From an uncultured Bacteroidales bacterium (GTDB lineage Bacteria > Bacteroidota > Bacteroidia > Bacteroidales > Paludibacteraceae), in contig ONEG01000014.1 of NCBI GenBank assembly GCA_900316845.1, forward strand, positions 56,878 through 120,877: 64,000 bases of DNA. The letters run 5' to 3'. Shown here one piece after another: positions 776-52,936 of the stretch. Every line of letters begins with the position of its first letter. The first letter of the stretch is position 1. The notes under the pieces are model-generated. The model made no database searches. It was not told the origin of the DNA and saw only the letters and a program-made list of their open reading frames with translations. Both the position numbers and the translations under genes were made by a program.

Positions 776-2131
776 ATGATAAAAAAATTTTATATTGAGA
801 CATACGGTTGCCAAATGAACGTCGCAGACAGCGAGGTTGTGGCGGCTATTTTGGAGACTACCGATGCGGAAATAACCGACCGGTGGGAGGATGCCGACAT
901 CATTCTCCTCAATACCTGTTCCATCCGTGACAACGCCGAGCAGAAAGTCGGTGCCCGCCTCCGCGAGTTAAAAGCGCACTTGAAGAGTCGAAAGTCGAAA
1001 GTCGAAAGTCAAAAGACTATTATCGGCGTCATCGGTTGCATGGCAGAGCGCATGGGGCAGGAGCTGATTGATACTTTCGGTGTGGATTTTGTTGCAGGAC
1101 CGGACGCGTATCTCGATATCCCCAATCTCCTTGCCCAATGCGAGCAGGGACATAAGGCGATGAACGTGGAGCTCAGTACCACAGAGACCTACCGCCAGAT
1201 CATCCCTTCGCGTATCGGACGCTCCATCAGCGGGTTTGTGTCCATCATGCGGGGTTGTAATAACTTCTGCTCCTACTGCGTCGTGCCTTATACCCGCGGA
1301 CGCGAGCGCAGCCGAGACGTGGAGTCCATCCTCAATGAGGTACGTGACCTCCAATCGAAAGGCTATAAAGAAGTCACCCTCCTCGGCCAGAATGTCAATT
1401 CCTATCGCTACACTCCAATGGTAAATGGTACATGTGAAAATGGTACATGTATCGACTTTGCCGATCTTCTGGAGCTGGTAGCCGATGCCGTGCCGGACAT
1501 GCGTATCCGTTTCACAACCTCCCATCCCAAGGACATGTCCGACAAGACCCTCGAGGCCATCAGCCGCCATAAGAACCTCTGTAAGTTCATCCACCTGGCG
1601 GTGCAGTCGGGTTCGAACCATATCCTCCAACTCATGAACCGCAAATATACCCGCGAGTGGTACTTGGACCGTATCGCTGCTATCCGGCGTATCCTGCCGA
1701 CTGCAGCCATCAGTACGGATATCTTCTGCGGTTTCCATGACGAGACACTCGAGGATCACGCCCAGACGCTCTCTCTCATGCGCGAGGTGGGATTCGACTC
1801 CGCCTTCATGTTCAAGTACTCCGAGCGCCCCGGCACCTATGCGCATAAGCACCTGCCGGATAACATCCCCGAGGAGGAGAAAGTAAGGCGGCTCAATGAG
1901 ATCATCGCGCTGCAGACCCAACTCTCTCTGGAGTCTAACCAACGGGAGATAGGCAAGACCGTGGAGGTACTCGTCGAGGGCTTCTCCAAACGCAGCCATG
2001 ACGACATGTACGGACGGACGGAGCAGTACAAGACCGTCGTCTTCCCCCGTACCAACCAGAAGATCGGAGATCTCGTCAAAGTGACCATAAAAGAGGCATC
2101 TGCCGCTACTTTACGCGGAGAAATAGCCTAA
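776..2131 (+). CDS. miaB: tRNA-2-methylthio-N6-dimethylallyladenosine synthase
   Basis: Radical-SAM methylthiotransferase that converts i6A37 to ms2i6A37 in tRNAs reading UNN codons. The order is as expected: N-terminal UPF0004 domain with conserved cysteines (YGCQMN, NTCSIRDNAEQK, GVIGCMAER), the radical-SAM cluster motif CNNFCSYC near residue 160, and a C-terminal TRAM domain. I chose ATG 776 because the product then starts MIKKFYIETYGCQMN as in the family (451 aa); the frame stays open upstream through the tRNA. Oddity: residues about 70-81 (KSRKSKVESQK), between the cysteine motifs, are encoded by a 7-bp tandem repeat that orthologues are not expected to have. No promoter of its own was recognised. 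Confidence 0.97.
   Translation: MIKKFYIETYGCQMNVADSEVVAAILETTDAEITDRWEDADIILLNTCSIRDNAEQKVGARLRELKAHLKSRKSKVESQKTIIGVIGCMAERMGQELIDTFGVDFVAGPDAYLDIPNLLAQCEQGHKAMNVELSTTETYRQIIPSRIGRSISGFVSIMRGCNNFCSYCVVPYTRGRERSRDVESILNEVRDLQSKGYKEVTLLGQNVNSYRYTPMVNGTCENGTCIDFADLLELVADAVPDMRIRFTTSHPKDMSDKTLEAISRHKNLCKFIHLAVQSGSNHILQLMNRKYTREWYLDRIAAIRRILPTAAISTDIFCGFHDETLEDHAQTLSLMREVGFDSAFMFKYSERPGTYAHKHLPDNIPEEEKVRRLNEIIALQTQLSLESNQREIGKTVEVLVEGFSKRSHDDMYGRTEQYKTVVFPRTNQKIGDLVKVTIKEASAATLRGEIA
986..1017 (+). repeat. 7-bp tandem repeat inside miaB
   Basis: About four and a half imperfect copies of AGTCGAA. The tract lies in a surface loop of the UPF0004 domain and keeps the frame. It is one of the dispersed heptamer/octamer tracts of this window. 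Confidence 0.9.
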
Positions 2132-2164
2132 AACAAAGAAATTTCGCATTTTTTTGCTAAAAAA

Positions 2165-2196
2165 TTTGGTTATGTCATAAAAAAGCAGTACTTTTG
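2165..2196 (+). promoter_or_regulatory. promoter of the greA leader
   Basis: TTTG (2165-2168), 20 bp, TACTTTTG (2189-2196). It would give a leader of about 130 nt before the small ORF at 2340 and about 260 nt before greA. Confidence 0.8.
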
Positions 2197-2239
2197 TACC
2201 GAAAACAAAATTTTCATAGTTAAGGTTTAGGTTTGATGG

Positions 2240-2272
2240 CAATAGGAGGCTGTGAAGTTTCCTATTGTTTTT
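2240..2272 (+). terminator. terminator-like hairpin 1 in the greA leader
   Basis: Perfect 7-bp stem CAATAGG/CCTATTG (2240-2246 with 2261-2267) followed by five T. It lies about 40 nt after the predicted start of transcription, so it could act as an attenuator and not only as the end of miaB. Confidence 0.6.
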
Positions 2273-3387: not shown

Positions 3388-5427
3388 TTACCATATCGAT
3401 ACTCGATTCTCCGGGGCGATATACATCGGGCTTTCCTCCGTCACGTTCCATGCCTCGTACCATGCGTTGATCTGCGGCAGAGCACCGTTGACACGCCATC
3501 GACCGAGGGAGTGAGGATCGCTCTTCGTGCGGTTCAGGATCTCCTCCGGGCGGATGTTACCTGCCCATACGTTCGCGTACGCGAGGAAGAACCGTTGTGC
3601 CGGCGTGAAGCCGTCGCGGGTCTGCAGACGCTCACTCTCGGGCTTGCTCTCTTCGTTCAGGCAGAAGGCCAGGTAACTAACCTGCAGACCGCCGTGGTCA
3701 GCGATATTCTCACCCAGCGTGAACGCACCGTTAGCGTGTACGCCCGGAGCCACTTCGATCTTGTTGAACGCTTCTTCCATCACTTTCGTGCGCTCGTCGA
3801 AGGCGGCTTTGTCCTCTGCCGTCCACCAGTTGATCATGTTACCGTCCTTGTCAAACTGACAACCCTGATCGTCGAAGCCGTGGGTCATCTCATGACCGAT
3901 GACAACACCGATAGCGCCGTAGTTGAACGCGTCATCGGCGCTCATGTCGAAGAACGGATACTGCAGGATGCCGGCAGGGAAACAGATCTCGTTGGACGAG
4001 GGGTTATAGTATGCGTTCACCGTCTGCGGCGTCATGTACCATTTCTTCTTATCTACCGGCTTGCCGAGGTAGCTCAGGCTGTACTCCTGCTCGAATTTAG
4101 CAGCGCGCTCGAGGTTAGCATAGTAGGTATCCTCCGGGTTGATGTCGAGCTTCGAGTAGTCGCGCCATTCGTCCGGATAACCGATCTTGATGGTGATCGC
4201 GTTCAGTTTCTCGAGGGCTTTGGCCTTCGTCTCGTCGCTCATCCATGCTAAGTTCTCAATGCGGATACCCAGCGCTTTTTGCAGGTTATGCACGAGCGCG
4301 AGCATGCGTTCCTTATTCTCTTCGGGGAAGTATTTCTGTACGTACATCTGTCCTACCGCTTCGCCGAGCGTGCCGTTGACGATACCCACGGCGCGTTTCC
4401 ATAGCGGACTCGGCTCCTCGCGACCGGAGAGCACCTTGCCGTAGAAATCAAAACTCGTCATGTATATCTCCGTCGTCAGGTACGATGCCGCACCTTCGAT
4501 AGCCTGCCAGGTGAACAGCGTCTTCAGGTCCTTCAACGGCTCGTCAGCCAGCATCTTGCCTGCTTCCTGCAGGTGCGGTATCTGTCCTACGGAGAGGCTG
4601 TCTAACTCTACGCCCAAGGCATCGAAATATGCTTTCCAATCGACCTGCGGCACGAGCTCCTGCAACTCCGCGATGGACATCTTGTTGTAGTTCTTGATCG
4701 GGTCACGCAGCTCCACGTTGTTATACGCCGCTTTCGCCAGCCTTGTCTCCATACGCAGCACCGTCTGTGCGCGGGCTGCACCGTCGCTGAAACCGAACAG
4801 ACCGAACATCTTCTCTACGTACGCCACGTAGGCATTACGGATGGCGGTCGTCTGCTCGTCCGTGTCGAGGTAGTACTCTTTCTCGCCGAGCGCAAAACCT
4901 GCCTGGCACTCGTTGAGGATGTTCATCGAACTGTTCATCGCGTCCGCATCAACGTACATCGCCCATAGCTGATAGTCCATCGCCGCACCGAGGTGCTTCG
5001 ACAGCTCCTCACGAGAAGTTATAGCTGCTATCTCGTCGAGGGTATGCTGTACCGGTGCGATACCTTCCTTATCACGACGTGCCGTGTCCATCGCGAGGTT
5101 ATACAGGTCCCCGATCTTCTGCTCAATAGAGCCCGTCTCTTGACTCTTGTCTCTTGACTCTTGTCTCTTGGCTATCTCCTGAATCAGCCCATTCACCTGC
5201 TCGAGGTTCGTCAGTCCGAGTTTGTCGAACGAACCGAAACGTGCATACTCCGGCGTCAAGGGGTTGTTGGCCATCCATCCGCCGCACGCAAACTGATAGA
5301 AGTCATTCTGCGGAACCGCCGTCGTGTCTAAGTTCGCTAAGTCGATTCCCGTCGTCTGTTCCTGTTTGTTAGTACAAGCTGTAGTCATAAGCATTACTGC
5401 GCTTAAAGTAAAAATAAGTTTTTTCAT
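3388..5427 (-). CDS. M13 family zinc metallopeptidase (neprilysin/PepO-like lipoprotein)
   Basis: 679 aa from ATG 5427; the start is set by the signal sequence MKKLIFTLSAVMLMTTAC, a probable lipoprotein signal with Cys at about residue 18. M13_N fills most of the chain and M13 catalytic motifs follow: HEMTH near residue 511 and GENIADHGG near 572, which supplies the third zinc ligand. The protein ends in the usual short tail with W (ENRVSIW). It should degrade peptides at the cell envelope. A 7-bp tandem repeat (5135-5171) encodes RQESRDKSQETGS in a loop near residue 90. It has its own promoter, overlapping that of the divergent adhesin gene. Confidence 0.95.
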   Translation of the reverse strand: MKKLIFTLSAVMLMTTACTNKQEQTTGIDLANLDTTAVPQNDFYQFACGGWMANNPLTPEYARFGSFDKLGLTNLEQVNGLIQEIAKRQESRDKSQETGSIEQKIGDLYNLAMDTARRDKEGIAPVQHTLDEIAAITSREELSKHLGAAMDYQLWAMYVDADAMNSSMNILNECQAGFALGEKEYYLDTDEQTTAIRNAYVAYVEKMFGLFGFSDGAARAQTVLRMETRLAKAAYNNVELRDPIKNYNKMSIAELQELVPQVDWKAYFDALGVELDSLSVGQIPHLQEAGKMLADEPLKDLKTLFTWQAIEGAASYLTTEIYMTSFDFYGKVLSGREEPSPLWKRAVGIVNGTLGEAVGQMYVQKYFPEENKERMLALVHNLQKALGIRIENLAWMSDETKAKALEKLNAITIKIGYPDEWRDYSKLDINPEDTYYANLERAAKFEQEYSLSYLGKPVDKKKWYMTPQTVNAYYNPSSNEICFPAGILQYPFFDMSADDAFNYGAIGVVIGHEMTHGFDDQGCQFDKDGNMINWWTAEDKAAFDERTKVMEEAFNKIEVAPGVHANGAFTLGENIADHGGLQVSYLAFCLNEESKPESERLQTRDGFTPAQRFFLAYANVWAGNIRPEEILNRTKSDPHSLGRWRVNGALPQINAWYEAWNVTEESPMYIAPENRVSIW
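5135..5171. repeat. 7-bp tandem repeat inside the M13 peptidase gene
   Basis: Five imperfect copies of CTCTTGA/CTCTTGT as read on the plus strand. It is in frame, in a linker before the GSIEQKIGDLY motif. Confidence 0.9.
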
Positions 5428-11438: not shown

Positions 11439-11442
11439 CCCC

Positions 11443-11489
11443 CTTCCCCTCTCCCTCCCCTCCATGGGGAGGGGTCGGGGTGGGGCTTT
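11443..11489 (+). terminator. GC-rich imperfect hairpin after the first adhesin gene
   Basis: A C-rich arm (11443-11463) pairs with a G-rich arm (11468-11486). The inner core CCCCTCC/GGAGGGG with loop ATGG is perfect, and CTTTA follows. It probably ends the adhesin transcript, but the long pyrimidine/purine arms also resemble a dispersed intergenic repeat. Confidence 0.5.
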
Positions 11490-11523
11490 AGCTGTGCTGC
11501 TGATCCCACTCTTGACCGCACAC
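11488..11523 (-). pseudogene. 3' fragment of a small gene (tail VCGQEWDQQHS)
   Basis: On the minus strand the codons before a TAA read VCGQEWDQQHS. This is nearly the same as the tail ICGAEWDQQHA of the broken gene 150 bp upstream (11643-11901). It is a second relic of the same family. The region up to 11640 holds no intact gene. Confidence 0.5.
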
Positions 11524-11604
11524 GCGCCTCGCGGGCAAACCCCTCGTATATGTACCTAAACTACGTTCAGGTAGTAAATACTCGGGGCAGTTCCGCTCTC
11601 CCCA

Positions 11605-11623
11605 CCGGATGTAAAACATCCGT
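11605..11623. repeat. small palindrome CGGATGT/ACATCCG
   Basis: 7-bp stem around AAA inside a C/G-rich stretch. It is similar in style to the GGATG/CATCC hairpins at 60.93-60.97 kb. Confidence 0.45.
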
Positions 11624-11642
11624 CGGGGACCCCGTGGAAAAT

Positions 11643-11901
11643 TTACGCGTGCTGCTGATCCCATTCAGCGCCGCAAATTTTCCAATACCATTGTTTCATG
11701 GTCTTTGCGCCGTTCGGCTCGTTCTTCTGAGCGATGAAGGTCTGCTGGTCAGTCGTGATCTTCGACAGGGTTTGAGGTCGTTGCAGCGGTTCGGTGCGTC
11801 GCGAGCAACATCTTCTCGCAGCTATGCTGACCGCTCTTACCGGGTTTGGACAATGCGCCGGACACATGATCAATTCCGGCTGAATAAGTTACTGATGCCA
11901 T
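11643..11901 (-). pseudogene. frameshifted small gene of the island
   Basis: From ATG 11901 the first frame encodes MASVTYSAGIDHVSGALSKP... and stops after about 50 codons at LATHRTAATTSNP. The next frame over is open from about 11795 and carries TLSKITTDQQTFIAQKN and a tail KQWYWKICGAEWDQQHA with TAA at 11643. The two halves look like the two ends of one protein of roughly 115 aa, with an internal deletion or frameshift near 11780. Function unknown. It is the last gene of the minus-strand island. Confidence 0.6.
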
Positions 11902-11970
11902 AATAATTAAAGTTTTTTATGTTTTTTTCTTAAATTTCTTAAATACTAATACTTCCACGAAGACCGTCGA

Positions 11971-12550: not shown

Positions 12551-12554
12551 ACCG

Positions 12555-12755
12555 CTACAGTTTTTTCGACGCGTCGTAGGTTTCGATCGTTTTGGTCTGG
12601 ATGATAACGGAGGTGTCGGCTTTCTGCCAATACTCGCTTTTGGTGGTGATAGTCCGGGTGACATTGCAGGAACTCATCCCCAGCGCAATCGCCAGACACG
12701 TCAGCAATGCCGTTACAGCCGTTGCCACGATTTTGTAAATCTGTTGTTTAGTCAT
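12555..12755 (-). CDS. small lipoprotein-like membrane protein
   Basis: 66 aa from ATG 12755. There is one hydrophobic segment (IVATAVTALLTCLAIALGM) followed by SSC, a possible lipobox, then a Thr-rich tail (TRTITTKSEYWQKADTSV). The size and layout resemble tiny hydrophobic proteins that accompany phage or amidase genes in Bacteroidales; this is only a resemblance. It has a hairpin in its leader (12792-12823) and lies in the island's operon. Confidence 0.65.
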   Translation of the reverse strand: MTKQQIYKIVATAVTALLTCLAIALGMSSCNVTRTITTKSEYWQKADTSVIIQTKTIETYDASKKL

Positions 12756-12791
12756 AATGGTTGATTTTTTGAACACGACATGCAATATAAA

Positions 12792-23346: not shown

Positions 23347-25461
23347 ATGGCAGTAAAGTCGAAAGTAGAAAGTAAAAAGTCGAAAGACGAAGGCCCGAAA
23401 CATTTACCGATAGTGGCACGGGACCCGTATCTGGAGCCGTACGAGGGTGCGCTGCAAGCACGCGCCGAGTATGCCCTCCGCAAAGAGGCGGAGATCACCG
23501 GCGGACAAGATCTTGCGGATTGGGCAAGCGGATACCTGTATTTCGGATTACACCATGACCGCCACAACAAACAGTGGGTCATGCGCGAATGGGCACCGAA
23601 CGCCACGGCGATCTATATCAAGGGCGATATGAACGGATGGCAGAAAGACGAAGCCTACCGTCTGCAACCCATCGGTAACGGCGTCTGGGAAGCCAAAATG
23701 CCGGAGGACGCCATCAAGCATGAGCAGTTGTACAAGCTCCTCGTCGAATGGCAAGGCGGTTACGGCGAACGCATACCGAGTTACGTGCGCCGCGTGGTGC
23801 AGGACGAGCAGACGAAGATCTTCTCTGCGCAGGTATGGGACGAGCCCGAATACGAATGGAAGAACCGACAAACAAAGGGACAAAGGAGCAAAGTACAAAG
23901 TACAAAGGAAGCCCTCTTTATCTACGAGTGCCACATCGGTATGTCGTCCGAGCAGGAGAAAGTGAACTCGTATGAGGAGTTCCGCCGCGACGTACTGCCG
24001 CGTATCGCCAAACTCGGCTATAACTGCGTACAGATCATGGCGGTGCAGGAACACCCGTACTACGGTTCGTTCGGCTACCATGTATCGAACTTCTTCGCAG
24101 CCTCCAGCCGTTTCGGAACGCCGAACGAGCTCAAGGCGCTCATCGACGATATTCACGGCAGGGGCATGAAGGTGATTATGGACCTCGTTCACTCGCACGC
24201 GGTGAAGAACGAGTTGGAAGGTCTGGGTAACTTCGACGGCACGGGGTATCAGTATTTCCACGATGGTCCGCGGCGTGAGCACCCGGCATGGGACAGTCTC
24301 TGCTTCAACTACGGCAAGAACGAAGTGCTGCACTTCCTGCTCTCAAACTGCAAGTTCTGGATCGACGAGTATGACTTCGACGGTTTCCGCTTTGACGGCG
24401 TGACCTCGATGATTTATCTTTCGCACGGTTTAGGCGAGGACTTCAACGGGTACGGCAGCTATTTCAACGGCAACGAAGACGGCGATGCGATCATGTATCT
24501 GACGCTCGCTAACAAAGTGATCCATGAGGTAAAGCCCGATGCTATCACCATCGCAGAGGAGATGAGCGGCATGCCGGGTCTGGCAGCCAAGATAGAAGAC
24601 GGCGGCATGGGCTTCGATTACCGTCTGGCGATGGGTATTCCGGATTTCTGGATCAAGTATATCAAAGAGGTGAAGGACGAAGACTGGAAAGCCGGCCATA
24701 TACTCTACGAGATGACCAACCGCCGCGAGGACGAGAAGACCATCTCCTACGCGGAGAGCCATGACCAGGCACTGGTAGGCGACAAGACGATCATCTTCCG
24801 TCTCGTGGATTCCGACATGTACTGGCATTTCGAGCACGGCCATTCGACCTATATGGCAGACCGCGGTATAGCCCTGCATAAGATGATACGCCTTGTGACC
24901 GCCTCCACCATCAACGGTGGCTACCTGACCTTCATGGGGAATGAGTTCGGTCATCCGGAATGGATCGACTTCCCGCGTGAGGGTAACGGATGGAGCTATA
25001 AATACGCCCGGAGACAATGGGGGTTGGTAGATAACCCGAACTATTTCTTCTCGGACCTCAACCGCTTCGACGAGGCGATGATTCATCTGCTCAAGGAGCA
25101 CCTGCTGATCCAGAAACCGACCGCAGAAGAGAAGAAATACAACGTCGGCAACCACCTGCCATGGGTGATGAAATGGTGGGACAACGAGGGTGACCAGGTA
25201 GTGGCGTATTCGCGTGGCGATCTGCTGTTCATCTTCAACTGGAATGGTCAGAAGTCCTTCTCCGACTATGGTATCCTGGTGCCGGAAGGCAAGTACCAAG
25301 TGGTGCTCAATACGGACGCGAAGGAGTTTGCAGGCTTTGGCCTCGCGGACGACAGCGTAGAGCATTTCACGGTACACGACGACCTCTACGCCAAGGACGG
25401 CAAGGGATGGCTGAAGATGTACCTCCCGGCGCGCAGCGCGGTGGTTTTAAAGAGATGTTAA
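23347..25461 (+). CDS. glgB: 1,4-alpha-glucan branching enzyme (GH13)
   Basis: 704 aa. It introduces alpha-1,6 branches into glycogen. CBM48 is at about residues 60-170. The GH13 barrel follows, with nucleophile region DGFRFDGV (near 345), acid/base region AEEMSG (near 403) and ESHDQ (near 471); a beta domain is at the end. The length and motifs fit the eukaryote-like GH13_8 branch found in Bacteroidota. Two low-complexity insertions are encoded by 7-bp tandem repeats, at the N-terminus (KSKVESKKSK) and between CBM48 and barrel (KGQRSKVQSTK). No other glycogen gene is in the window. Confidence 0.96.
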   Translation: MAVKSKVESKKSKDEGPKHLPIVARDPYLEPYEGALQARAEYALRKEAEITGGQDLADWASGYLYFGLHHDRHNKQWVMREWAPNATAIYIKGDMNGWQKDEAYRLQPIGNGVWEAKMPEDAIKHEQLYKLLVEWQGGYGERIPSYVRRVVQDEQTKIFSAQVWDEPEYEWKNRQTKGQRSKVQSTKEALFIYECHIGMSSEQEKVNSYEEFRRDVLPRIAKLGYNCVQIMAVQEHPYYGSFGYHVSNFFAASSRFGTPNELKALIDDIHGRGMKVIMDLVHSHAVKNELEGLGNFDGTGYQYFHDGPRREHPAWDSLCFNYGKNEVLHFLLSNCKFWIDEYDFDGFRFDGVTSMIYLSHGLGEDFNGYGSYFNGNEDGDAIMYLTLANKVIHEVKPDAITIAEEMSGMPGLAAKIEDGGMGFDYRLAMGIPDFWIKYIKEVKDEDWKAGHILYEMTNRREDEKTISYAESHDQALVGDKTIIFRLVDSDMYWHFEHGHSTYMADRGIALHKMIRLVTASTINGGYLTFMGNEFGHPEWIDFPREGNGWSYKYARRQWGLVDNPNYFFSDLNRFDEAMIHLLKEHLLIQKPTAEEKKYNVGNHLPWVMKWWDNEGDQVVAYSRGDLLFIFNWNGQKSFSDYGILVPEGKYQVVLNTDAKEFAGFGLADDSVEHFTVHDDLYAKDGKGWLKMYLPARSAVVLKRC
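23354..23388 (+). repeat. 7-bp tandem repeat at the glgB start
   Basis: About five degenerate copies of AAGTCGA/AAGTAGA type right after the start codon. It adds a Lys/Ser-rich N-terminal extension. Its sequence is close to the tract in miaB. Confidence 0.85.
23869..23908 (+). repeat. 7-bp tandem repeat inside glgB
   Basis: Degenerate copies around AAAGTAC/CAAAGGA. In frame, in the linker before the conserved IYECHIGMSS segment. Confidence 0.8.
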
Positions 25462-25472
25462 ATCGAGATCCC

Positions 25473-25496
25473 GTAATTACGTAATAACGTAATCCC
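25473..25496. repeat. 8-bp tandem repeat between glgB and the thioredoxin-like gene
   Basis: Three imperfect copies: GTAATTAC, GTAATAAC, GTAATCCC. Nothing else was seen in this 53-bp gap. Confidence 0.85.
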
Positions 25497-25514: not shown

Positions 25515-26054
25515 ATGAAAAAGACTCTATTATTTATTTTCGCGGCGATGGTAATGGTTGGCTGCGGTAAGAAAGCTCAGGAATCGGAGAAGACTGCTAC
25601 GGACACCGTAGTGATCGTCGAAGAAGTGATGGTACAGACCGGTAATACAGCCGGCACATATTTTACGGATTTCACGGGTGTGACGCCGGAAGGCAAAGAG
25701 CTGTCGCTGAGCGAGTTGGTCGGCAAGACCGATTATGTGCTCTTGGATTTCTGGGCATCGTGGTGCGGTCCCTGCCGTCGTTTTGTGCCGGTACTCAAGG
25801 AGATCTACACCTCCATGCCGGAGGGCAGATTGCAGATCCTCTCTTGCTCCGTCGATCAAGAAGAGGCAGCTTGGCGCACGGCGCTGAGCGAAGAAGATAT
25901 GCCGTGGGTACAAGTGCGCGAAGATGAGGCGCATCCCTGCTCCGATAAATACGGTGTACAATTCATCCCTCATACCGTCCTCATCGACAGCGAGGGTACG
26001 ATCGTCGGCGTCAACCTCGAGGAACCCGAGATCCAGGAGATCTTATTTAATTGA
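25515..26054 (+). CDS. thioredoxin-like (TlpA/ResA-type) lipoprotein
   Basis: 179 aa. The lipoprotein signal MKKTLLFIFAAMVMVGC places it at the envelope. The thioredoxin fold carries the redox motif WCGPC (about residues 83-87) in LLDFWASWCGPCRRF and the cis-Pro region VQFIPHTVLI. Probably a thiol-disulfide reductase for exported proteins. The gene stands between glgB and nagB with repeat-bearing gaps on both sides, so it may be co-transcribed with them. Confidence 0.92.
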   Translation: MKKTLLFIFAAMVMVGCGKKAQESEKTATDTVVIVEEVMVQTGNTAGTYFTDFTGVTPEGKELSLSELVGKTDYVLLDFWASWCGPCRRFVPVLKEIYTSMPEGRLQILSCSVDQEEAAWRTALSEEDMPWVQVREDEAHPCSDKYGVQFIPHTVLIDSEGTIVGVNLEEPEIQEILFN

Positions 26055-26078
26055 TAATTGATAATTTATAATTGATAT
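26050..26078. repeat. 7-bp tandem repeat before nagB
   Basis: Four copies of ATTGATA/ATTTATA type. It covers the stop codon of the upstream gene and ends at the nagB start codon. Confidence 0.85.
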
Positions 26079-32586: not shown

Positions 32587-34059
32587 ATGGAAATCTATAA
32601 TTCGCTAACTCGTTTCAAGGAGACTTTCAAGCCGCTGCACGAGGGTCACGTAGGCATGTACGTCTGCGGACCTACCGTGTACGGCGATGCGCATTTGGGA
32701 CATGCCCGTCCGGCAATCACGTTCGATGTGCTGTACCGGTATCTGCAGCATCTAGGCTATAAGGTGCGTTATGTGCGTAATATCACTGATGTAGGACACT
32801 TGGAGCACGATGCGGACGAAGGCGAAGATAAGATTGCTAAGAAAGCGCGCCTCGAGCAACTCGAGCCGATGGAGGTGGTGCAATACTACACCAACCGCTA
32901 CCACCGCGACATGGCGGCGCTGAACGTCCTCCCGCCGTCGATAGAGCCGCACGCAAGCGGACATATCATCGAGCAGATCGCTTTCGTGCAGAAGATTCTC
33001 GACCGCGGCTACGCGTATGTGTCAAACGGAAGCGTCTATATGGACGTCGAGAAATACGCCAAAGACTATCCGTACGGCAAGCTCTCCGGACGTAACCTCA
33101 ACGATATCGTTACCGAGACGCGTGAGTTAGACGGACAGGCAGAGAAGAAGCACTCTTACGACTTCGCGCTATGGAAGAAAGCCGCTCCGGAGCATATCAT
33201 GCATTGGCCATCGCCGTGGAGCGAAGGATTCCCCGGATGGCATATGGAGTGCTCCACGATGGGCACCAAGTACCTCGGTGAGCAGTTCGACATCCATGGC
33301 GGTGGTCTGGACCTGATCTTCCCGCACCACGAGGCGGAGATAGCGCAGTCCTGCGCAGCACTCGGGCATGAGTCCGTGCATTACTGGATGCATAACAACA
33401 TGATTACCATCGCCGGCAAGAAGATGGGTAAGAGTTATAATAACTTCATCACCCTGGAGCAATTCTTCTCGGGTGAGCACCCGCTCTTGTCAAAACCTTT
33501 CGGTCCGATGGTCATCCGTTTCTTCATCCTCCAGGCGCACTATCGCTCGACGGTGGACTTCTCTTCCGAAGCCCTCGAAGCAGCCGAGAAAGGTCTGCAA
33601 CGTATGCAGGAAGCGTACGCAAGATTGCTGAAGATCCCGTCTTCTGCGGCTACCAGTGTAGAGGTAGGCGGCTTGCGCCAACGCTGTGCTGAGGCTATGG
33701 ACGACGATCTCAACACGCCGTTTGTGATTGCAGCGCTGTTTGACAGCGTGAAGGCGATCAACACCGTTTGGGATGGCAAAGGAACCATTAGTGAGTCGGA
33801 TCTTGCCGAATTGCGTGATGTATGGAAAACCTTCGCGATTGATATCCTCGGTCTGCGTCTGGAGGAGGATGGCTCTTCCCTTCAGGGAGGAGACAAGAAG
33901 ATGAAGGCGTTCCACGGCGCCATCGACTTGTTGCTCGGTATCCGTCTGCAAGCCAAGCAGAACAAAGACTGGGCAACCTCCGATAAGATCCGTAACGAGC
34001 TGACGGCTCTCGGCTTCCAAATAAAGGACACCAAAGATGGCTTTGAGTGGTCTATATAG
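32587..34059 (+). CDS. cysS: cysteinyl-tRNA synthetase
   Basis: Charges tRNA-Cys. 490 aa class I synthetase with zinc-site region [19 protein letters not shown] (HIGH motif as HLGH), [19 protein letters not shown], and KMSKS loop as KMGKSYNN (near residue 280). The DALR-type anticodon part is at the C-terminus. Own promoter; the next gene's first possible start lies inside its 3' end. Confidence 0.97.
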
Positions 34060-34771
34060 AATAAAGAATAAAGACCGCTCCGCTAAAAGAGTAAAGACTT
34101 GTTTGCGTCTGCTGATGCATTTAAGTCTTTATTCCTTATTCTTTATTCCTTTAGTCTCTTGTGGTCATCAGACGCAAGAGACGGTCATTGCAGAAGACAG
34201 CCTCGTTTGGTATCCCGGAAGGACGTTTAGTTACAAGTTGAAATTCAACGACCTGCAGAGCAAACAGCATGAGGTAGCGAGTCGTATCGGCTTGTCGCGT
34301 CCGCCGAAAGACAGAGACGATGCCGCATCGATGCGCAAACAGTTGGTGGAGATCAAGACCAATGAGAACTATATCGTTGATAGCCTGACGCATTCGGTGC
34401 CGTACCTCATTCCTTCTGCTGCGCGGGAGTTAGAGGCTATCGGGGCAGAGTGGGCAGATATACTAAGTCGGAACGGTTTGCCGCATTATCAGTTCTACGT
34501 CACATCGGTACTGCGTACGCAAGAAGATATCAAGTTCTTGCAGAAAAGCGGCAATATTAACTCCGTCACGCAGTCCTGTCATTGCTACGGTACGACTTTT
34601 GACCTCGCGTACATGCGATATAATAAGGTTACGCGCTCCCGTATGTACATGCACGAGGATAACCTGAAGTTAGTGTTGGGGCAGGTGCTGCTGAACCATC
34701 AGCGAGCAGGAAAGATCTTCGTCAAATACGAGGCGAAGCAGAGTTGTTTTCACATTACGGTGAGGGAATAA
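34037..34771 (+). CDS. DUF5715 family lipoprotein (M15 peptidase-like)
   Basis: 244 aa from ATG 34037, overlapping cysS by 23 nt; an internal start (TTG 34103 or ATG 34115) would also give a signal ending FFIPLVSC. Conserved-looking segments [29 protein letters not shown] and CFHITVRE match the SxHxxGxxxD and terminal His pattern of VanY-like M15 carboxypeptidases. A role in peptidoglycan or other envelope hydrolysis is therefore plausible (inference). The long basic N-terminus is encoded by repeat-like DNA (34059-34096), so the true start is uncertain. Confidence 0.75.
34059..34151. repeat. inverted pair of 7-bp-type tandem tracts
   Basis: GAATAAAGAATAAAG (34060-34074) and a complementary degenerate tract CTTTATTCCTTATTCTTTAT (34127-34146) face each other across the signal-peptide region of the DUF5715 gene. 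They could pair in mRNA. Confidence 0.6.
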
Positions 34772-36916: not shown

Positions 36917-38340
36917 AAGTCAATAATATATGCTTTCGCTGCCTCGTACTCGTTAGGGATGATGCCGTCGAGGATTGCGTCTTTGACAGCAGCTTTGAGT
37001 TCGCCTACTAACGAACAAGGTTCGAGATGGAACATCTCCATGATCTCATCGCCTTTGACGGGCGGTTGGAAATTGCGTATTCGGTCCCGTTCCTCCAGTT
37101 CGACCATCTTCTGCCGCACGAGTTGGTAGTTCTGATGGTACCGCTCCACTTTCTGCTCGTTGCGGGAAGTGATATCTGCGTCGCAGAGAAGCATGAGGTC
37201 GTCGATGTCGTCTCCTGCTTCGAAGAGCAACCGCCGTACTGCCGAGTCGGTCACGGTGTCCTCGATGAGGTTGATGGGGCGCATATGCAGATCCACCATC
37301 TTCTTGACGTACTCCATCTTCTCGTTGAGCGGCAGTTTCATCTTCGCAAAGATCTTCGGTACCATCTTCGCTCCGAGGTAGTTATGGTTACGGAAAGTCC
37401 ATCCTGCCTGCGGGTCCCATTGCTTGGAGCGCGGTTTGCCGATATCGTGCAATAACGCTGCCCAACGGAGCCAAAGGACTTTGTCCTTTCGTTCATTCGT
37501 TAACTCGTTCATTCGTTCACTCGTTAACTCCGCTACGTTGTCAAGCACTTTGAGCGTGTGGTAAAAGACGTCCTTGTGTCCGCGACCTTCTTTTACTTCG
37601 ACACCTTTGAGAGCGGCTAATTCCGGGAAGATGAGCGGCAAGAGACCTGTCTTGTCCAGCAGGATCCATCCTTCGGAGGGCCTGCGGGAGAGCATAATCT
37701 TATTTAACTCCTCCGCGATGCGCTCCTTGGTGATGATACGTATGCGTTCCTTATTTCGCGCGATAGCGTCGAAAGTCTCGCCGTCAAGGTTGAAACCTAA
37801 TTGCGTAGCAAACCGCACGGCGCGCATCATCCGTAAGGGGTCGTCCGAGAAAGTGATATCCGGGTCGAGGGGCGTTTTGATGATACAGCGCTCGAGGTCG
37901 CCTATGCCGTCAAAGGGGTCTAATAGTTCGCCGTAATGGTCTTTGTTAAGACAGATTGCCATGGCGTTGATGGTGAAGTCGCGCCGGTTCTGATCCTCCT
38001 CCAACGTGCCGTCTTCTACGATGGGATTACGGCTGTCACGCGTGTAACTCTCGCGCCGGGCACCTACGAACTCAAGTTCCATCCCATTCTTCTTCACCTG
38101 TGCGGTACCATAGGTCTTGAAGACCGCCAGATGCGCACCCTTGCCAAGCCGTTTGACTACGGCTTCTGCCAACGAGATACCGGATCCAACCACCACGATG
38201 TCGATATCATCCGAGGGACGATGGAGAAACAAGTCTCGCACCCATCCGCCGATGACGTAACATTCCAAGCCTAAGCGATCCGCTTCTTCGCCTACCAGGT
38301 GAAGGATAGGATTTTCTATTTTTGAATCCGAAATACGCAT
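36895..38340 (-). CDS. cca: CCA tRNA nucleotidyltransferase / HD domain protein
   Basis: 481 aa from ATG 38340, chosen because the product then begins close to the conserved core [13 protein letters not shown]. The nucleotidyltransferase head carries DIDIVVVG and [10 protein letters not shown]; the HD domain has [11 protein letters not shown]. It adds or repairs the 3' CCA of tRNAs, needed here since the tRNA-Pro gene lacks CCA. An 8-bp tandem repeat encodes [17 protein letters not shown] just before the HD domain. It shares an operon with parE and has a divergent promoter with rpsP. Confidence 0.95.
37489..37530. repeat. 8-bp tandem repeat inside cca
   Basis: Five copies of TCGTTCAT/TCGTTAAC/TCGTTCAC type. 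In frame, in the linker before the HD domain. Confidence 0.9.
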
Positions 38341-38515: not shown

Positions 38516-39079
38516 ATGGCAACAAAAATTCGTTTGGCTCGTTATGGTCACAAAGACTATGCTTTCTACCACATCGTAGTAGCAGACAGCCGCTCGCCGC
38601 GTGACGGCAAGTACATTGAGCGTCTTGGCTCGTTCAACCCGAACACTAATCCTGCAACCGTAATCCTCAATTTTGAGCGTGCGTTGTACTGGGTAGGCGT
38701 AGGTGCACAGCCGACTGACACCGTACGTACAATCCTCTCTAACGAGGGTGTACTGCTTTGCAAACACCTCCAAGGCGGCGTGGCAAAGGGCGCTTTCAGC
38801 CAGGAAGAGGCTCAGAAGCGTTTCGACGCTTGGAAGGCTCAGAAGGACGCTAAGGCTGGTAAGATCAGCCAGGCAGAGGCAGACAAGAAAGCTGCTGCTG
38901 CAAAAGCTCTTCTTGCTCAAGAGGTAGAGACCAACAAAGCTATCGCTGCTAAGATCGCAGAGAAACGTGCTGCTGCGGCTGCAGAGCTCGCAGCTGCTGC
39001 ACAGGAGGCTGCTCAGGAAGCTGCTGCCGCTGAGGCAGAGGCTAAGGGCGAAGAGGCTCCAGCAGAGGCTGAGGCTTAA
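38516..39079 (+). CDS. rpsP: 30S ribosomal protein S16 (bS16) with long Ala/Glu-rich tail
   Basis: 187 aa. Residues 1-80 are the S16 core ([34 protein letters not shown]). The rest is a charged, Ala-rich helical extension ([18 protein letters not shown]), typical for Bacteroidota S16. The S16 core helps assemble the 30S body; the tail's role is unknown. Monocistronic, with promoter and terminator visible. Confidence 0.97.
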
Positions 39080-39081
39080 AA

Positions 39082-39118
39082 ATCGGAATATCGATATATC
39101 GACATATCGAAATACCGA
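39082..39118. repeat. 8-bp tandem repeat after rpsP
   Basis: Four and a half copies of TCGGAATA/TCGATATA/TCGACATA/TCGAAATA directly after the stop codon. Confidence 0.9.
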
Positions 39119-39126
39119 AGAAAAAG

Positions 39127-41323: not shown

Positions 41324-42561
41324 GGCGGATAGTGAAAAATATGACGGCATTGGGGGTGCTTCAGATAGCGAATTATCTGATACCGCTTTTAGTGTTGCCG
41401 GTGGTGAGTCGCGTGTTAGGCGCAACGCTTTTCGGAAGCGTCGGATACGCGCAGAATATCGTTTCTTACCTGACGCTTTTGGTCAATTTCGGTTTTGAAT
41501 ATTCGGCTACGCGTCAAGTGGCTTTGGCGGGTGATGATAAAGAGAAGAAGCGGCAGCTTTTCTGGGCGGTTATCACGGCGAAAGCGGGATTGTTGGTGCT
41601 ATCGTTTGTCATTTTGGCTCTTCTGCCGCTTTTCGTGGAGCGTGTGGCGTGTGATCCGAGGTTGTATATTTATACGGCGCTGACGAATATCGGTATCGTG
41701 TTCTTCCCGACTTGGTACCTGCAAGGCGAGCAACAAATGGACAAGATGGCTTGGGCGAATTTCTTTACGAAGTTGTTAGGGGCATTGCTGGTGGTTGCGT
41801 TGGTTCGCGAGTCATCGATGTACAGATGGTACCCGTTGTTGCTGTCGATGGCGAGTATTGTGGTGGGAATCGGCGCGATGATTTATGTCGTACGTCATTT
41901 TGAGATAGGCAAGTATATCTGTACGCGCGAAACGATGGAAGAGGTGCTGCATGCCGGCATGCCGATCTTTATCAATAATGTGTTTGTCAGTCTGTACACG
42001 ACGGTCAATATGACCTTGTTGGGCGGTTTTGTCACGGATGAGATGATCGGTTATTTCTCTGCGGCGCAGCGGCTGATTATTGCGTTGAATATGGTAGTTG
42101 TCTTGCCGGTTAGTACTGCTATTTATCCGGAGATGAGCCGGCGTTTCGAGACTTCGCCCGCGGAAGGGATGCAATTCTTCAAACGCGTGCTGGTTTATGC
42201 GTCTTTGGCGGCAGCAGTCGTGTCGTTGGGAACATTTGTCGTAGCGCCGTTCGCAATCCCTATTATTTACGGTGACGGATATGAACCCGCGATTGAAGTG
42301 TTACGATGGCTTTCGCCGCTTCCATTCTTAGTAATGGTTGCTACTTTGTTAACTGTACAGGGGCTCTATGGTCTAGGATTACACCGTTTTGCCCCTTATG
42401 TGGGACTTATTTTGGCCTTGCTGTGTATCTCCGTCAATTTGTGGTTGTTGCCGAGTCTGGGAGTGAAAGCGGTTTGTGTCGGATGGAATGTGGCGGAAGT
42501 GATGGAATGCGTTATTGTCGGAGGGATATTAATGGTTAAAGGACGAAGGGTTACGGGTTAA
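41320..42561 (+). CDS. Wzx-type polysaccharide flippase
   Basis: 413 aa, about 12-14 membrane helices of the MATE/MVF fold (MTALGVLQIANYLIPLLVLP, VSRVLGATLFGSVGYAQ). It moves lipid-linked repeat units across the inner membrane. It is more GC-rich than the two acyltransferase genes upstream. A 7-bp-period tract lies at its end. Confidence 0.93.
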   Translation: MRRIVKNMTALGVLQIANYLIPLLVLPVVSRVLGATLFGSVGYAQNIVSYLTLLVNFGFEYSATRQVALAGDDKEKKRQLFWAVITAKAGLLVLSFVILALLPLFVERVACDPRLYIYTALTNIGIVFFPTWYLQGEQQMDKMAWANFFTKLLGALLVVALVRESSMYRWYPLLLSMASIVVGIGAMIYVVRHFEIGKYICTRETMEEVLHAGMPIFINNVFVSLYTTVNMTLLGGFVTDEMIGYFSAAQRLIIALNMVVVLPVSTAIYPEMSRRFETSPAEGMQFFKRVLVYASLAAAVVSLGTFVVAPFAIPIIYGDGYEPAIEVLRWLSPLPFLVMVATLLTVQGLYGLGLHRFAPYVGLILALLCISVNLWLLPSLGVKAVCVGWNVAEVMECVIVGGILMVKGRRVTG

Positions 42562-42571
42562 CGGTTAAGGG
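42548..42571. repeat. 7-bp tandem repeat at the flippase stop codon
   Basis: GGGTTAC-GGGTTAA-CGGTTAA-GGG; it includes the stop codon and fills the gap to the polymerase gene. Confidence 0.8.
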
Positions 42572-49322: not shown

Positions 49323-49340
49323 AAATCATAAATCATAAAT
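49323..49340. repeat. 7-bp tandem repeat between psuK and psuG
   Basis: Two and a half copies of AAATCAT; fills the 19-bp gap up to the psuG start codon. Confidence 0.75.
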
Positions 49341-50256: not shown

Positions 50257-50990
50257 AATTCTATACTCTGTACTCTGTACTCTGTGTTCTTTTATTCTCA
50301 TCCTGCCATCGTCAGCCGATGCATGTGGTTTCCGTCACTACGCAAGCCATCCCCGTAGATGCTTCTGCAGATGCAATCCGAGACACTGACTACATCGCTC
50401 ATTTAGCGCCTATTAAGGCAGATTTGGAGCGCGAGATGAATGTGCAGATCGGTTATGCCCCCGAACGAATGTGGGTGGACGGACCGGAGTGTCCGATGCT
50501 TAACTGGGCGACGGAGGCTTTGTGGGAAGCGGCAAAGAAAGTGTACCCCGGTCAGGTGGATATAGCGATTGCAAACATGGGCGGAATGCGGTGTGCCTGG
50601 GACGCGGGACCGATTACCAAAGGCTGCGTCTTCGAACTCATGCCGTTTGATAATGAGCTGGTCGTGCTGACCCTCAAGGGAGAAGATATCCTCGCGCTCT
50701 GTGAGTCCTTCGTGCGTTACGGAGGCCAAGGTGTGGCAGGAATGCGCGTGACGGCAGTTGATGGCAAACTGGCGGATGTGACCATCGCCGGCAAAGCAGT
50801 CGATCCGCAAGCGTTATATACGGTCGCTACCAGCGATTACCTCTCCGGTGGTGCCGACCATATGGATGCGCTCACGCATTTTACAGAGTGTTGGAAGAGC
50901 GATCTTCTGATCCGTGACCTCTATCTCGAGGCCGTACAACAACAAGATACCATACAGGCTGTCGTAGATGGCAGAATGACAATATTATGA
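50244..50990 (+). CDS. 5'-nucleotidase C-terminal domain lipoprotein
   Basis: 248 aa; lipoprotein signal ending VLLFSSC. Only the 5_nucleotid_C domain is present: [48 protein letters not shown]. The catalytic metallophosphatase half, usually the neighbouring gene in Bacteroides, is absent here, so it may act with a partner elsewhere or only bind nucleosides. Its hydrophobic signal segment ([10 protein letters not shown]) is encoded by a 7-bp tandem repeat. Confidence 0.9.
50261..50290 (+). repeat. 7-bp tandem repeat encoding a signal peptide core
   Basis: Three to four copies of CTGTACT (with variants CTATACT and CTGTGTT) code for [10 protein letters not shown] of the nucleotidase-domain lipoprotein. 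Confidence 0.85.
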
Positions 50991-51220
50991 GTAAGAAATT
51001 CTTAATCTGCATGAACGCACTACTCGGCGCCCTCAGTGTGATGCTGGCGGGTTGTCATGTGCAGAAAAAAGCGAATCCAGCGGAGCAGCAGGAGTCAGAC
51101 AACAAACCAGTACAGGAGGTTAGAGAACCGGAGCCGGAGGTCAAACCGCTCTACGGCGTGCCTGTGCCCGATGAGCCCATTAAGTGCAAGTACGGAGCAC
51201 CGGCCCCTCGCAAGTACTGA
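50987..51220 (+). CDS. small lipoprotein with Pro-rich YG[AV]P tail
   Basis: 77 aa. Signal [23 protein letters not shown], then an acidic, Glu/Pro linker and a tail with two degenerate copies of YGxPxP (LYGVPVPDEP, CKYGAPAPRKY). Overlaps the previous gene by 4 nt. Its last 41 nt overlap the 3' end of the convergent LD-carboxypeptidase gene. Function unknown; likely an envelope-anchored peptide. Confidence 0.75.
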   Translation: MSKKFLICMNALLGALSVMLAGCHVQKKANPAEQQESDNKPVQEVREPEPEVKPLYGVPVPDEPIKCKYGAPAPRKY

Positions 51221-52100
51221 CCACCGCCCCCTCGGCAGAAATAATCATCCGGGTCGGTACGCCGAGCCACAAGGGCAAGTTGTGCTCCACATGTCCCACC
51301 GGCGCATTGAAAAGAATGGGGTAGTCGTAGTCTGCGACTACCTCTTTTATGGTCTCATAGATGGAGCAACCCATTGACGGATCGTCTTCACAATCGCTGA
51401 ATTGTCCTACAATCAGTCCGCTTAGATGCGCCAATACACCGCTGAGTTTGAGATTGCGAATCATCCGGTCAATATGGTAATGCCGCTCTGCGATATCTTC
51501 AATCAGCAAAATCGGTTTCTGACGGCTCAATGCTGACGGCTGCATGCTGACGGCTGCATGCTGAATGCTGAAAGCCGTTCCTTGCAGACCATAGAGAACG
51601 GAGAGGTTGCCGCCGATGAGGGGACCTTCTGCTGCTCCGAAACGGTTCAGCGGATGGGCTTCCCACCGATATTCCAATGGCTCGCCCTTCAATGCCTTTC
51701 TTAGCGCTACGATCGGTTCGCTGTCTTCCGGCAGCGTTGCGATATGCTTGCACATGATGCCATGAAGAGAGGGCTGATGGCAGATGGCGGATAACCGGTG
51801 CAGCGCGGTAATGTCGCTAAAACCGATAATGGGTTTGCCGATGGGAGCAATACGGTCGATGATCCGTTGCAATCCGTATCCGCCGCGCGAACAAAGGATG
51901 AAGTCTATATCGCTGTCCGCCAGCGCCGCATTGAGATCCGAAGCCCGCTGTTCATCCGTTCCGGCAAACCGTCCCCATCGCGCGCGTGCGTACGCGCCCT
52001 CGCTCACTTTATATCCCCACGCGCGCAGGCGTGCAGAGGCTTGGTCAATATAGGTCGGGTCGATGACCCCGGACGGAGAAATGATACGAATATGTTTCAT
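51180..52100 (-). CDS. LD-carboxypeptidase (peptidase S66)
   Basis: 306 aa from ATG 52100, which overlaps the upstream stop (TAATG). Cleaves the terminal D-Ala of tetrapeptide stems for murein recycling. Catalytic Ser in CSRGGYGLQRIID, GFSDITALH, Glu in LLIEDIAE, His in GHVEHNLPLWLG. A 7-bp tandem repeat inserts IQHAAVSMQPSALSRQK before the LLIEDIAE strand. Last gene of the SDR-LdcA pair. Confidence 0.93.
   Translation of the reverse strand: MKHIRIISPSGVIDPTYIDQASARLRAWGYKVSEGAYARARWGRFAGTDEQRASDLNAALADSDIDFILCSRGGYGLQRIIDRIAPIGKPIIGFSDITALHRLSAICHQPSLHGIMCKHIATLPEDSEPIVALRKALKGEPLEYRWEAHPLNRFGAAEGPLIGGNLSVLYGLQGTAFSIQHAAVSMQPSALSRQKPILLIEDIAERHYHIDRMIRNLKLSGVLAHLSGLIVGQFSDCEDDPSMGCSIYETIKEVVADYDYPILFNAPVGHVEHNLPLWLGVPTRMIISAEGAVVSTCEGPVLRTCT
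51519..51573. repeat. 7-bp tandem repeat inside the LD-carboxypeptidase gene
   Basis: Seven to eight imperfect heptamers of GCTGACG/GCTGCAT/GCTGAAT type. In frame. The longest such tract in the window. Confidence 0.9.
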
Positions 52101-52906
52101 TACGAGTAGAGCTTGTGTTCTATCCAATTCACCAGTCGTTTCGGCAGGATACGGTCGAGGAAGCAAAGTACCCGATACAGGAATCCGCCCACATATTGCG
52201 GTCTTGGCGAATGGCAGGTGGCGATATGATAGAACAGCTTCGCCATTTGTTCGGGTTGCATGCCGGCTCGCTCGTCCCGCTCCATATTGGCAATCGCCTT
52301 ATGCGCAGAGCGGTAGATCTCTTCGCCTGCCGTGGATTTGTTGCGAGCGTCGGTAAAGCCGGTACTCACATCGCCCGGCATCATCACAGAGACGGAAATC
52401 CCGAAAGCCCGTACTTCGTTTGCCAGCGCAAGCGCCATGGCGTTGATAGCGGCTTTCGATGCGGAGTAGAAAGCCTGATACGGAACGGGTAGTTGGGCTG
52501 CGACGGAAGAGGTGTAGATGATCCTTCCGTAGCCTTGTTGGCGTAACTGCGGCAGGACCGCTTGCGTGAAACGCACCGCGCCCATGAAGTTCACGTCCAT
52601 CTGATGCTCCGCGTCGACGATCGTTGTATATTCGATCGGTCCGGAGATACCATAACCGGCATTGGAGATGACAGCATCAATATGATCGGTCTGCGTTAAC
52701 ACCTCCTCGATGGCCTTCTTGCAGCTCGCCTCGTCGCACACATCGCATTTAACATGCGTTATGGAACCTTTGCCCGAATGGTTGTCCGCTCTGTCGGGAG
52801 CACCCGACCGGCTCAACTCAAAGACACGCCAGCCCCGCTCTGCGAAGAGCGAGGCTGTAGCTTTTCCGATACCCGAACTGCCGCCGGTTATGATTAGTGT
52901 TTGCAT
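52100..52906 (-). CDS. short-chain dehydrogenase/reductase
   Basis: 268 aa from ATG 52906. Rossmann motif TGGSSGIGKATASLF, NAG in VISNAGYGISG, catalytic Ser...YxxxK as S-VAAQLPVPYQAFYSASKAA, and a hydrophobic basic tail (LDRILPKRLVNWIEHKLYS). Because it directly follows the serine palmitoyltransferase gene, it is a good candidate for 3-ketosphinganine reductase (inference). Overlaps the LD-carboxypeptidase start. Confidence 0.9.
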   Translation of the reverse strand: MQTLIITGGSSGIGKATASLFAERGWRVFELSRSGAPDRADNHSGKGSITHVKCDVCDEASCKKAIEEVLTQTDHIDAVISNAGYGISGPIEYTTIVDAEHQMDVNFMGAVRFTQAVLPQLRQQGYGRIIYTSSVAAQLPVPYQAFYSASKAAINAMALALANEVRAFGISVSVMMPGDVSTGFTDARNKSTAGEEIYRSAHKAIANMERDERAGMQPEQMAKLFYHIATCHSPRPQYVGGFLYRVLCFLDRILPKRLVNWIEHKLYS

Positions 52907-52936
52907 CAATTATCAATTGTCAATTGTCAACTATCA
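52906..52936. repeat. 7-bp tandem repeat between spt and the SDR gene
   Basis: Four copies of CAATTAT/CAATTGT/CAACTAT type. They fill the 27-bp gap and include the final codons region of the upstream gene. Confidence 0.85.

Follow-up and report, generated by a model that had tools for sequence, protein, structure and literature searches.

What kind of process places short tandem arrays of recurring period and changing sequence both between genes and in frame within the housekeeping genes of a single bacterium? We asked this of a window of 64,000 nucleotides (bases 56878-120877 of contig 29, in a genome of 2,337,091 bases and 37 contigs) which carries fifteen tracts of tandemly repeated heptamers or octamers, and whose host belongs to a Bacteroidales genus from rumen and gut, likely in the Paludibacteraceae. 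Place and repeat length often persist while the sequence differs between species, and as judged from sequence comparison this points to a process that writes DNA rather than to one sequence that jumps. We give an even chance to the reading in which the tracts are products of a continuing error process of DNA synthesis and not of one element. The best reading of its workings is that slippage with realignment on a short core would account for the period, core and drift of the arrays, with short-tract copying being needed for the shared vocabulary of units and for the replacement of one array by another.

The census of this genome covered 833 kb of 2.34 Mb, consisting of the window and 39 stretches picked from contigs with AAAGTCG matches, a choice which may inflate the share of AAAGTCG. 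Arrays were scored by ungapped autocorrelation (+1/-2) with a threshold of at least 11 in the window and at least 12 in the census, and controls were ten dinucleotide shuffles of the window and three local dinucleotide shuffles of the 833 kb at periods 5-16. The census held 94 period-7, 43 period-8 and 34 period-11 arrays, and at the remaining periods 13 (period 9), 8 (period 10), 6 (period 12), 3 (period 6) and none (periods 5 and 13), against shuffle means of 0-0.67 at each period; no array of period 7, 8 or 14 occurred in the ten shuffles of the window. The tracts are real and far above chance. A preliminary description of the window had made its proposal hinge on a genome-wide excess of periods 7 and 8 over shuffled sequence, and this is confirmed (94 and 43 arrays against about none), together with an excess at period 11 that it had not reported. 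By a longest-open reading frame (ORF) rule rather than by gene prediction, 60 of the 94 period-7 arrays lie inside predicted ORFs, and 24 of the 34 period-11 arrays are intergenic. The relatives used for comparison (80 named genomes kept, with 178 genomes of the genus in the collection) are metagenome assemblies of uncultured Bacteroidales of rumen and gut, many of them labelled Paludibacteraceae. The near relatives G175 and G069 show the same pattern, G175 with 44 period-7 and 18 period-8 arrays in 456 kb and G069 with 54 and 15 in 441 kb. Neither of two further genera from the family yielded a period-7 or -8 array (40 kb scanned for each), and ten genomes from other families yielded four over 134 kb in total; G441 and G455, both selected for carrying AAAGTCG, had 8 and 16 arrays in 49 kb each.

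Within the window, all fifteen tracts of the preliminary description were recovered by Tandem Repeats Finder (TRF), no more than a few bases from the positions it gave. Autocorrelation returned 14 of them, nine at period 7, three at period 8 and those at 34126 and 51519 only as period 14, but the tract at 42546 was too imperfect. They are listed below with the source of each row (the nagB and S16-like gene names were assigned by eye).

986..1015, period-7 array of AAAGTCG, in frame in the MiaB linker (TRF, scan)
5135..5170, period-7/14 array of AAGAGTC/AAGAGAC, in frame in the M13 peptidase gene, which is on the minus strand (TRF, scan; Pfam M13)
23355..23391, period-7 array of AAAGTCG at the GlgB N-terminus (scan)
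23869..23908, period-7 array of AAAGTAC, in frame in GlgB (TRF, scan)
25472..25493, period-8 array of CGTAATTA/CGTAATAA, intergenic (TRF, scan)
26048..26077, period-7 array of AATTATC (read as AATTGAT), stop-to-start spacer before nagB (scan)
34054..34074, period-7 array of ATAAAGA (TRF, scan)
34126..34151, period-7/14 array of TTATTCC/TTATTCT (TRF, scan)
37488..37530, period-8 array of AACGAATG, in frame in Cca (TRF, scan; gene by Cca homology)
39078..39119, period-8 array of nnATATCG, after an S16-like gene (TRF, scan)
42546..42571, weak period-7 array of AAGGGTT (TRF only)
49323..49340, short period-7 array of AAATCAT, intergenic (TRF, scan)
50260..50285, period-7 array of ACAGAGT on the T-rich strand, within a signal-peptide-like N-terminus (scan)
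51519..51572, period-7/14 array of GCTGACG/GCTGCAT, in frame in the LD-carboxypeptidase gene, which is on the minus strand (TRF, scan)
52905..52936, period-7 array of AATTATC/AATTGTC (TRF, scan)

The expectation that orthologues have nothing at the in-frame sites was borne out in part. The MiaB linker is 6 residues longer than in the solved homologue 7mjv, the GlgB linker is longer than in solved homologues by 8 residues (4bzy) or 4 (7p43), and the Cca tract, which adjoins a hairpin (AAAGGAC-TTT-GTCCTTT), is missing from G160, G022 and G034, but a fourth relative has another insert in Cca. The GlgB N-terminal array is present in the window and in G076 and is absent or reduced in G175, G069, G022, G034 and G077; the M13 peptidase tract differs in G175; the intergenic octamer tract at 25472..25493 is missing from G069 and G022 and shorter in G175; the tract at 42546..42571 is longer in G175 and G069; and the tract at 52905..52936 has one extra unit in G175. 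Orthologues sharing the same residues had been named as the outcome that would refute the proposal, and most sites differ; the octamer tract at 39078..39119, unlike most tracts, is unchanged in all six readable relatives, down to 88% glgB identity.

Turnover at orthologous sites was followed between species, with one genome per species. Both flanks of 46 of the 171 arrays of this genome were found in the fetched parts of seven relatives, giving 91 pairs. Where flanks were at least 95% identical (23 pairs), the unit was the same in 13, one base off in 3 and two or more bases off in 2, with another period in 1 and no array in 4; the corresponding counts were 9, 2, 8, 1 and 12 for flanks of 90-95% (32 pairs) and 10, 4, 6, 2 and 14 for flanks below 90% (36 pairs). 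The clearest switch is at L036:523, where an AATGTTT heptamer array here corresponds to a TCGAAATA octamer array in G175 between flanks that are 99 and 97% identical. When orthologues kept the same unit, five of eight length changes were multiples of the period. In the nagB spacer, 26 unit types occurred among the 45 of 75 rows that had a period-7/8 array (130 bases upstream scanned, duplicate genomes included; a few arrays may belong to the preceding gene), and a flank-based count gave 19 distinct units among the 31 of 65 loci with a period-7 array (duplicates included); the unit GATTTAT is present once in G022, and twice with a near copy in G069. All 29 MiaB loop sequences used (of 30 loci; L234 was excluded as its flank is missing) are in frame, 19 have period-7 arrays, and 25 of the 29 inserts are distinct. 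The part of the preliminary description which held that the period is kept while the unit changes is thus often upheld at nagB and MiaB, and these alignments support the view that the period may outlast the sequence at orthologous sites. Units within one site were closer than units from different sites (none of 1000 permutations gave so low a value; 49 of 1000 did for coding sites alone). A conserved dyad-bearing stretch like CTTGTCCGTTAGGCAGTAGTTACCGGCAAG precedes the nagB-spacer array in many species (L043, L048, L050, L139, L148 and others); at Rfam gathering thresholds, only a tRNA was matched in the window, with no match in the nagB-spacer loci L050, L139 and L148. A second weak period-7 tract (AATGGTA) lies in MiaB at window positions 1417-1449, at another variable loop.

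Functional selection on the arrays, for example because a translational or nucleoid protein binds them, an idea put forward for the TAACTGA repeats of Beggiatoaceae, would be consistent with the many nagB-spacer arrays that directly precede the start codon, with the constancy of the octamer tract at 39078 and with constant cores. We regard it as very unlikely, since 60 of the 94 period-7 arrays are in predicted ORFs, sister species differ in unit at one site, and at the L032 site several species carry just a short linker.

Selection is visible on the products of the arrays, in their frame and in their hydropathy. Across GlgB, MATE, MurF-Alr and DXS, 155 of 156 orthologue length differences were multiples of 3 (zero included; 86 of 87 at the in-frame GlgB site), and with MiaB, frame was kept in 184 of 185 orthologues at the five sites pooled. 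At the GlgB N-terminus, 23 of 59 length differences were multiples of 3, but this result was set aside, as non-coding DNA forms part of that stretch. Inserts, compared within array columns only (flanking bases excluded), were nearly all distinct (168 of 187: MiaB 25/29, GlgB 79/88, MATE 18/18, MurF-Alr 20/24 and DXS 26/28). Period-7/8 arrays were scored in 16 of 87 orthologues for GlgB, 10 of 19 in MATE, 8 of 23 in MurF-Alr and 13 of 27 in DXS, and 54, 7, 11 and 6 respectively had neither array nor hairpin; over the five sites, about one third of inserts were period-7/8 arrays and the rest were hairpins (such as CCTCCC..GGGAGG and GACCGGCTTCGCC) or plain linkers. On these alignments, arrays are one choice among several insert types at sites that would be tolerant of insertion. 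Thirty-base bins bearing indels in at least three relatives numbered six in MiaB and six in GlgB. A hydrophobic reading was found in 7 of 13 N-terminal arrays and 7 of 65 internal arrays, and a T-rich reading in 8 of 13 and 14 of 65. Chance or assembly artefact has next to no probability as an explanation: the named relatives are metagenome assemblies, but almost no arrays occur in shuffles, identical arrays occur in separately assembled species, and the frame is kept.

The sequence of the arrays is not free, as the preliminary description had supposed. AAAGTCG, which recurs in other families, is the unit of 21 of the 94 period-7 arrays (background 0.12%), followed by AATTATC with 9 and AATTGAC with 5. 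A pair of arrays in this genome has the same unit with a frequency of 0.065 (285 of 4365 array pairs) when 0.001 is expected from its own heptamers. The same coincidence is 0.016 in G175 and 0.031 in G069, so that it lies at 1.6-6.5% in three genomes against 0.1% expected, and it is 0.057 between this genome and G455, which belongs to another family. Duplicated regions supply some repeated units, as in three of the five AACCCCT arrays of G069 (similar flanks, contig ends). Among 61 genomes of the genus, 24 contain the sequence GTCGAAAGTCGAAAGTC (reversed control 0). Of 294 genomes from the order, 6 contain it, this one included, with 39 matches in G441 and 19 in G455 (reversed control 4 matches in 3 genomes). 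Three tandem copies of AATTACG were found in 7 of the 296 phylum genomes, and the reversed control in none. Nor does each tract of the window have its own unit, since AAAGTCG is the unit at both 986 and 23355, and AATTATC is shared, on opposite strands, by 26048 and 52905. A process is still favoured over one mobile sequence, by unit change at a kept period and by some copy changes in steps of the period, but template-free synthesis, one of the processes suggested, would yield neither a shared vocabulary nor a constant core. A preference for stop-free units was rejected as the source of the vocabulary: such units make up 30 of 41 at coding sites, and 69% of heptamers overall are stop-free.

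The units are built of a fixed core and a variable spacer, as in AAAG-TCG (where TCG takes most of the changes), AATT-nnn and TCGA-nnnn. When the columns that vary within arrays were compared with random placement (500 simulations), they were fewer than expected in this genome at period 7 (75 against 95.8; lowest simulation 83), period 8 (50 against 70.4; lowest 63) and period 11 (40 against 52.3; lowest 44), and in the genus loci at period 7 (73 against 100; lowest 90) and period 8 (28 against 38.8; lowest 33). Slippage in situ alone, in which a chance short repeat is extended by a preferred 7-nucleotide (nt) polymerase step and the unit drifts neutrally by concerted evolution with no copying between sites, would fit the excess at periods 7, 8 and 11, the copy-number steps between relatives and the gradual unit series of the nagB spacer and MiaB. 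We consider it possible but rather unlikely as the whole explanation. It is at odds with the unit coincidence in three genomes, with exact 30-bp arrays having identical ends at unrelated places, and with the replacement and change of period at L036:523. Plain slippage, which the preliminary description had offered, on its own leaves replacement between flanks at least 95% identical unexplained (3 of 23 pairs, in which the unit is two or more bases off or the period is another).

The 30-bp arrays are AGTCG(AAAGTCG)3AAAG, exact at L030:10700 (MATE transporter), L032:480 (MurF-Alr fusion) and L038:17874. They are read in two reading frames, with a near copy at MiaB in the third, and peptides read from in-frame arrays include KSKVESRKSK and QLSIINYQLSI. 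Codon-phase selection of array ends was rejected, as arrays with identical ends occur in different frames. Preferred ends of this type, with AGTCG starting 11 of 28 rows and AAAG ending 16 of 28 AAAGTCG rows in this genome (7 and 12 of 31 in other genomes; rows of one array can overlap in both counts), might suggest micro-elements with defined ends, mobilised in trans and inserting at tolerant sites in the manner of Rickettsia palindromic elements, repetitive extragenic palindromic (REP) sequences or miniature inverted-repeat transposable elements (MITE), with the heptamer arrays as their bodies. Hairpin-type inserts at the same sites as arrays, and 11-mer composite ACCATAGGATC arrays that are identical at four loci, would also agree with such elements, but neither a constant flank nor a terminal inverted repeat was observed, there are dozens of units, viral contigs showed no excess, and the expected enzymes are missing from some array-bearing genomes, as detailed below; we therefore hold micro-elements to be improbable. 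The ACCATAGGATC arrays have the same order of variant units at L014:527, L020:10341, L023:7778 and L030:18271, and form a dispersed composite element. At L026:9570-9658, two facing octamer arrays make a large inverted repeat, and G069 has facing repeats of another unit there.

Candidate machinery was sought in 15 genomes, nine array-rich and six for comparison; G007, G041 and G104 were called array-rich from GTCGAAA counts alone, G022 had 3 arrays in 43 kb, and of the comparison genomes two were scanned over 40 kb each (no period-7/8 array) and four over at most 20 kb each. In these draft assemblies, reverse transcriptase (RT) had no match in this genome (G000), G069, G022, G007 or G104 and was present in the array-rich G175, G041, G441 and G455. 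The Y1 transposase of REP-associated (RAYT) type had no match in four of the nine array-rich genomes (G175, G069, G041 and G455), with a best match in this genome of 25 bits (cut-off 23). Comparison genomes had RT in four of six and a Y1 match in three of six. RecJ was matched in all 15 genomes, 14 above the cut-off and one broken by a contig end. RT, Y1 transposase and loss of RecJ were thus rejected as determinants of the arrays, as none tracks with them across the 15 genomes. A generator based on RT is unlikely, given that this genome and four other array-rich genomes have none, though four have one. The arrays differ from RT-made repeats (diversity-generating retroelements, retrons, telomerase-like systems) in the five genomes without RT and from REP/RAYT systems in the four genomes without a Y1 match. 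Viral contigs showed no excess of the unit over its reversed control, with 26 stretches for each. A hairpin as constant companion of the arrays was also rejected: stems of at least 6, 7 and 8 accompanied 17, 12 and 6 of 93 period-7 arrays (14.3, 5.0 and 1.7 expected) and 4, 3 and 2 of 43 period-8 arrays (8.1, 3.7 and 1.0 expected).

Evidence for copying comes from the exact 30-bp array at three unrelated places and from units shared between sites and species. Within species, units at different coding sites were identical in 19 of 47 pairs against 4.7 when permuted (0 of 2000 permutations), and without six AAAGTCG-rich species in 2 of 18 pairs against 0.29 expected (42 of 2000). The MiaB array of G133 is the same as that of this genome between flanks 82% identical, and so is the DXS insert of G041 between flanks 74 and 80% identical. 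A stronger proposal, that a host system writes arrays in steps of 7 or 8 nt and trades them as cassettes among fixed sites in housekeeping genes and between species, seems to us unlikely. If it were true, period and site would be inherited while the sequence is replaced, and the cell would have a standing supply of in-frame linkers and signal-peptide segments.

In the synthesis-error process that we prefer, a nascent strand ending in a core of about 4 nt (such as AAAG, AATT, AAAT or TCGA) would re-anneal one unit back during replication or repair, in a step of 7 or 8 and sometimes 11 nt, and the unit would then be recopied. As only the core must match for re-annealing, cores would be constant and the spacer of 3-4 nt variable. 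At a tolerant site, comparison shows that the unit of an array can drift with the period unchanged. Short-tract copying, whether the source is another array of the same genome or the same site in another species, is supported but not proven, and the overwriting of arrays in this way would leave a small vocabulary of units per genome. Selection then filters the products: lengths in coding regions change by multiples of 3, A-rich readings give linkers that are hydrophilic, and N-terminal signal-like segments have more than their share of hydrophobic readings. Several observations weigh against this reading. No strain-level events were seen among the compared genomes, which number one per species. 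Three of the eight length changes between same-unit orthologues are not whole multiples of the period, variant columns at period 11 in the genus loci are within the simulated range (21 against 25.7 expected; lowest 20), and the likeness of units within a site holds at MiaB, GlgB and nagB and is absent at the other three sites. Template switching would predict hairpins, and as such their weak association with period 7 and lack of association with period 8 also count against it. Sharing between sites is inflated, three sites having been chosen for AAAGTCG in this genome; ancestral retention can also explain the arrays common to this genome, G133 and G041; and local slippage does not predict a vocabulary shared across families.

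The window also holds longer tandem repeats of periods 51 and 32-33, at 16007-16118 and 61180-61263, between large ORFs. Two giant ORFs (1955 and 2139 aa; 5571-22698) with repeated segments that by eye are leucine-rich-like separate the M13 gene from the gene at 22838, two genes which adjoin in several relatives, so that the window has about 17 kb extra.

Tandem heptamers and tiny inserts are familiar from the short tandemly repeated repetitive (STRR) sequences and small dispersed repeats of cyanobacteria. Unit turnover at fixed in-frame sites appears to be new, as no account of it was found in the open-licence literature, which does not prove that none exists. Heptamer repeats, their patchy spread and slippage as their cause are already published, in the parts of PMC4679880 and PMC4692102 covered here, to which the following statements from these papers also refer. 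Heptamers are the commonest class of long-unit repeat in most repeat-rich bacterial genomes (Mrazek et al. 2007, cited in PMC4679880 and PMC4692102), and slippage with a 7-nt polymerase contact has been proposed for them (Mrazek 2007, cited in PMC4679880). The present arrays share with these heptanucleotide simple sequence repeats the head-to-tail 7-nt units above chance, and differ in that periods 7, 8 and 11 are raised together, housekeeping genes carry arrays in frame, and one unit gives way to another at fixed sites. TAACTGA repeats occur in Beggiatoaceae, Cyanobacteria and five Bacteroidetes including Paludibacter; they mostly precede start codons in the main genome studied, show 7-nt indels between close strains, and are missing from some orthologous spacers of relatives (PMC4679880). 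They resemble the present arrays as short heptamer arrays of patchy spread. However, that study follows one unit, and turnover at orthologous sites is not described in its parts covered here; the rotated unit AACTGAT is found in only one of our 94 period-7 arrays (L026:4768), so that these do not belong to the TAACTGA repeats. The GGGAATC-type repeats of Xanthomonas and Nostoc are likewise heptamer arrays dispersed genome-wide (2-26 units), G-rich and G-quadruplex forming, and 83% of them are, in Xanthomonas, at the same place in a sister species (PMC4692102, which also mentions heptanucleotides in Calothrix). In contrast, only 22 of 55 pairs here keep the unit between flanks at least 90% identical, and no period-7 unit seen at least twice contains GGG or CCC, with a single AGGGATG array. 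Rickettsia palindromic elements, as described in the part of PMC10969869 covered, are about 150 bp and lie in frame in unrelated metabolic genes with conserved peptides; in-frame insertion into unrelated protein genes is shared, but in place of a conserved body of about 150 bp there are tandem arrays of about 20-60 bp with a variable unit.

The preference of bacteria for heptamers is an open question in this literature (PMC4679880 and PMC4692102, in the same parts). In this genus the period can outlast changes of sequence at several sites and across many sister species, which allows the step length to be examined independently of the unit, and the occurrence of array-rich and array-poor relatives within one family allows a search for the gene responsible. 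The in-frame sites in MiaB, GlgB, DXS and the MurF-Alr fusion show an origin of low-complexity linkers in housekeeping proteins.

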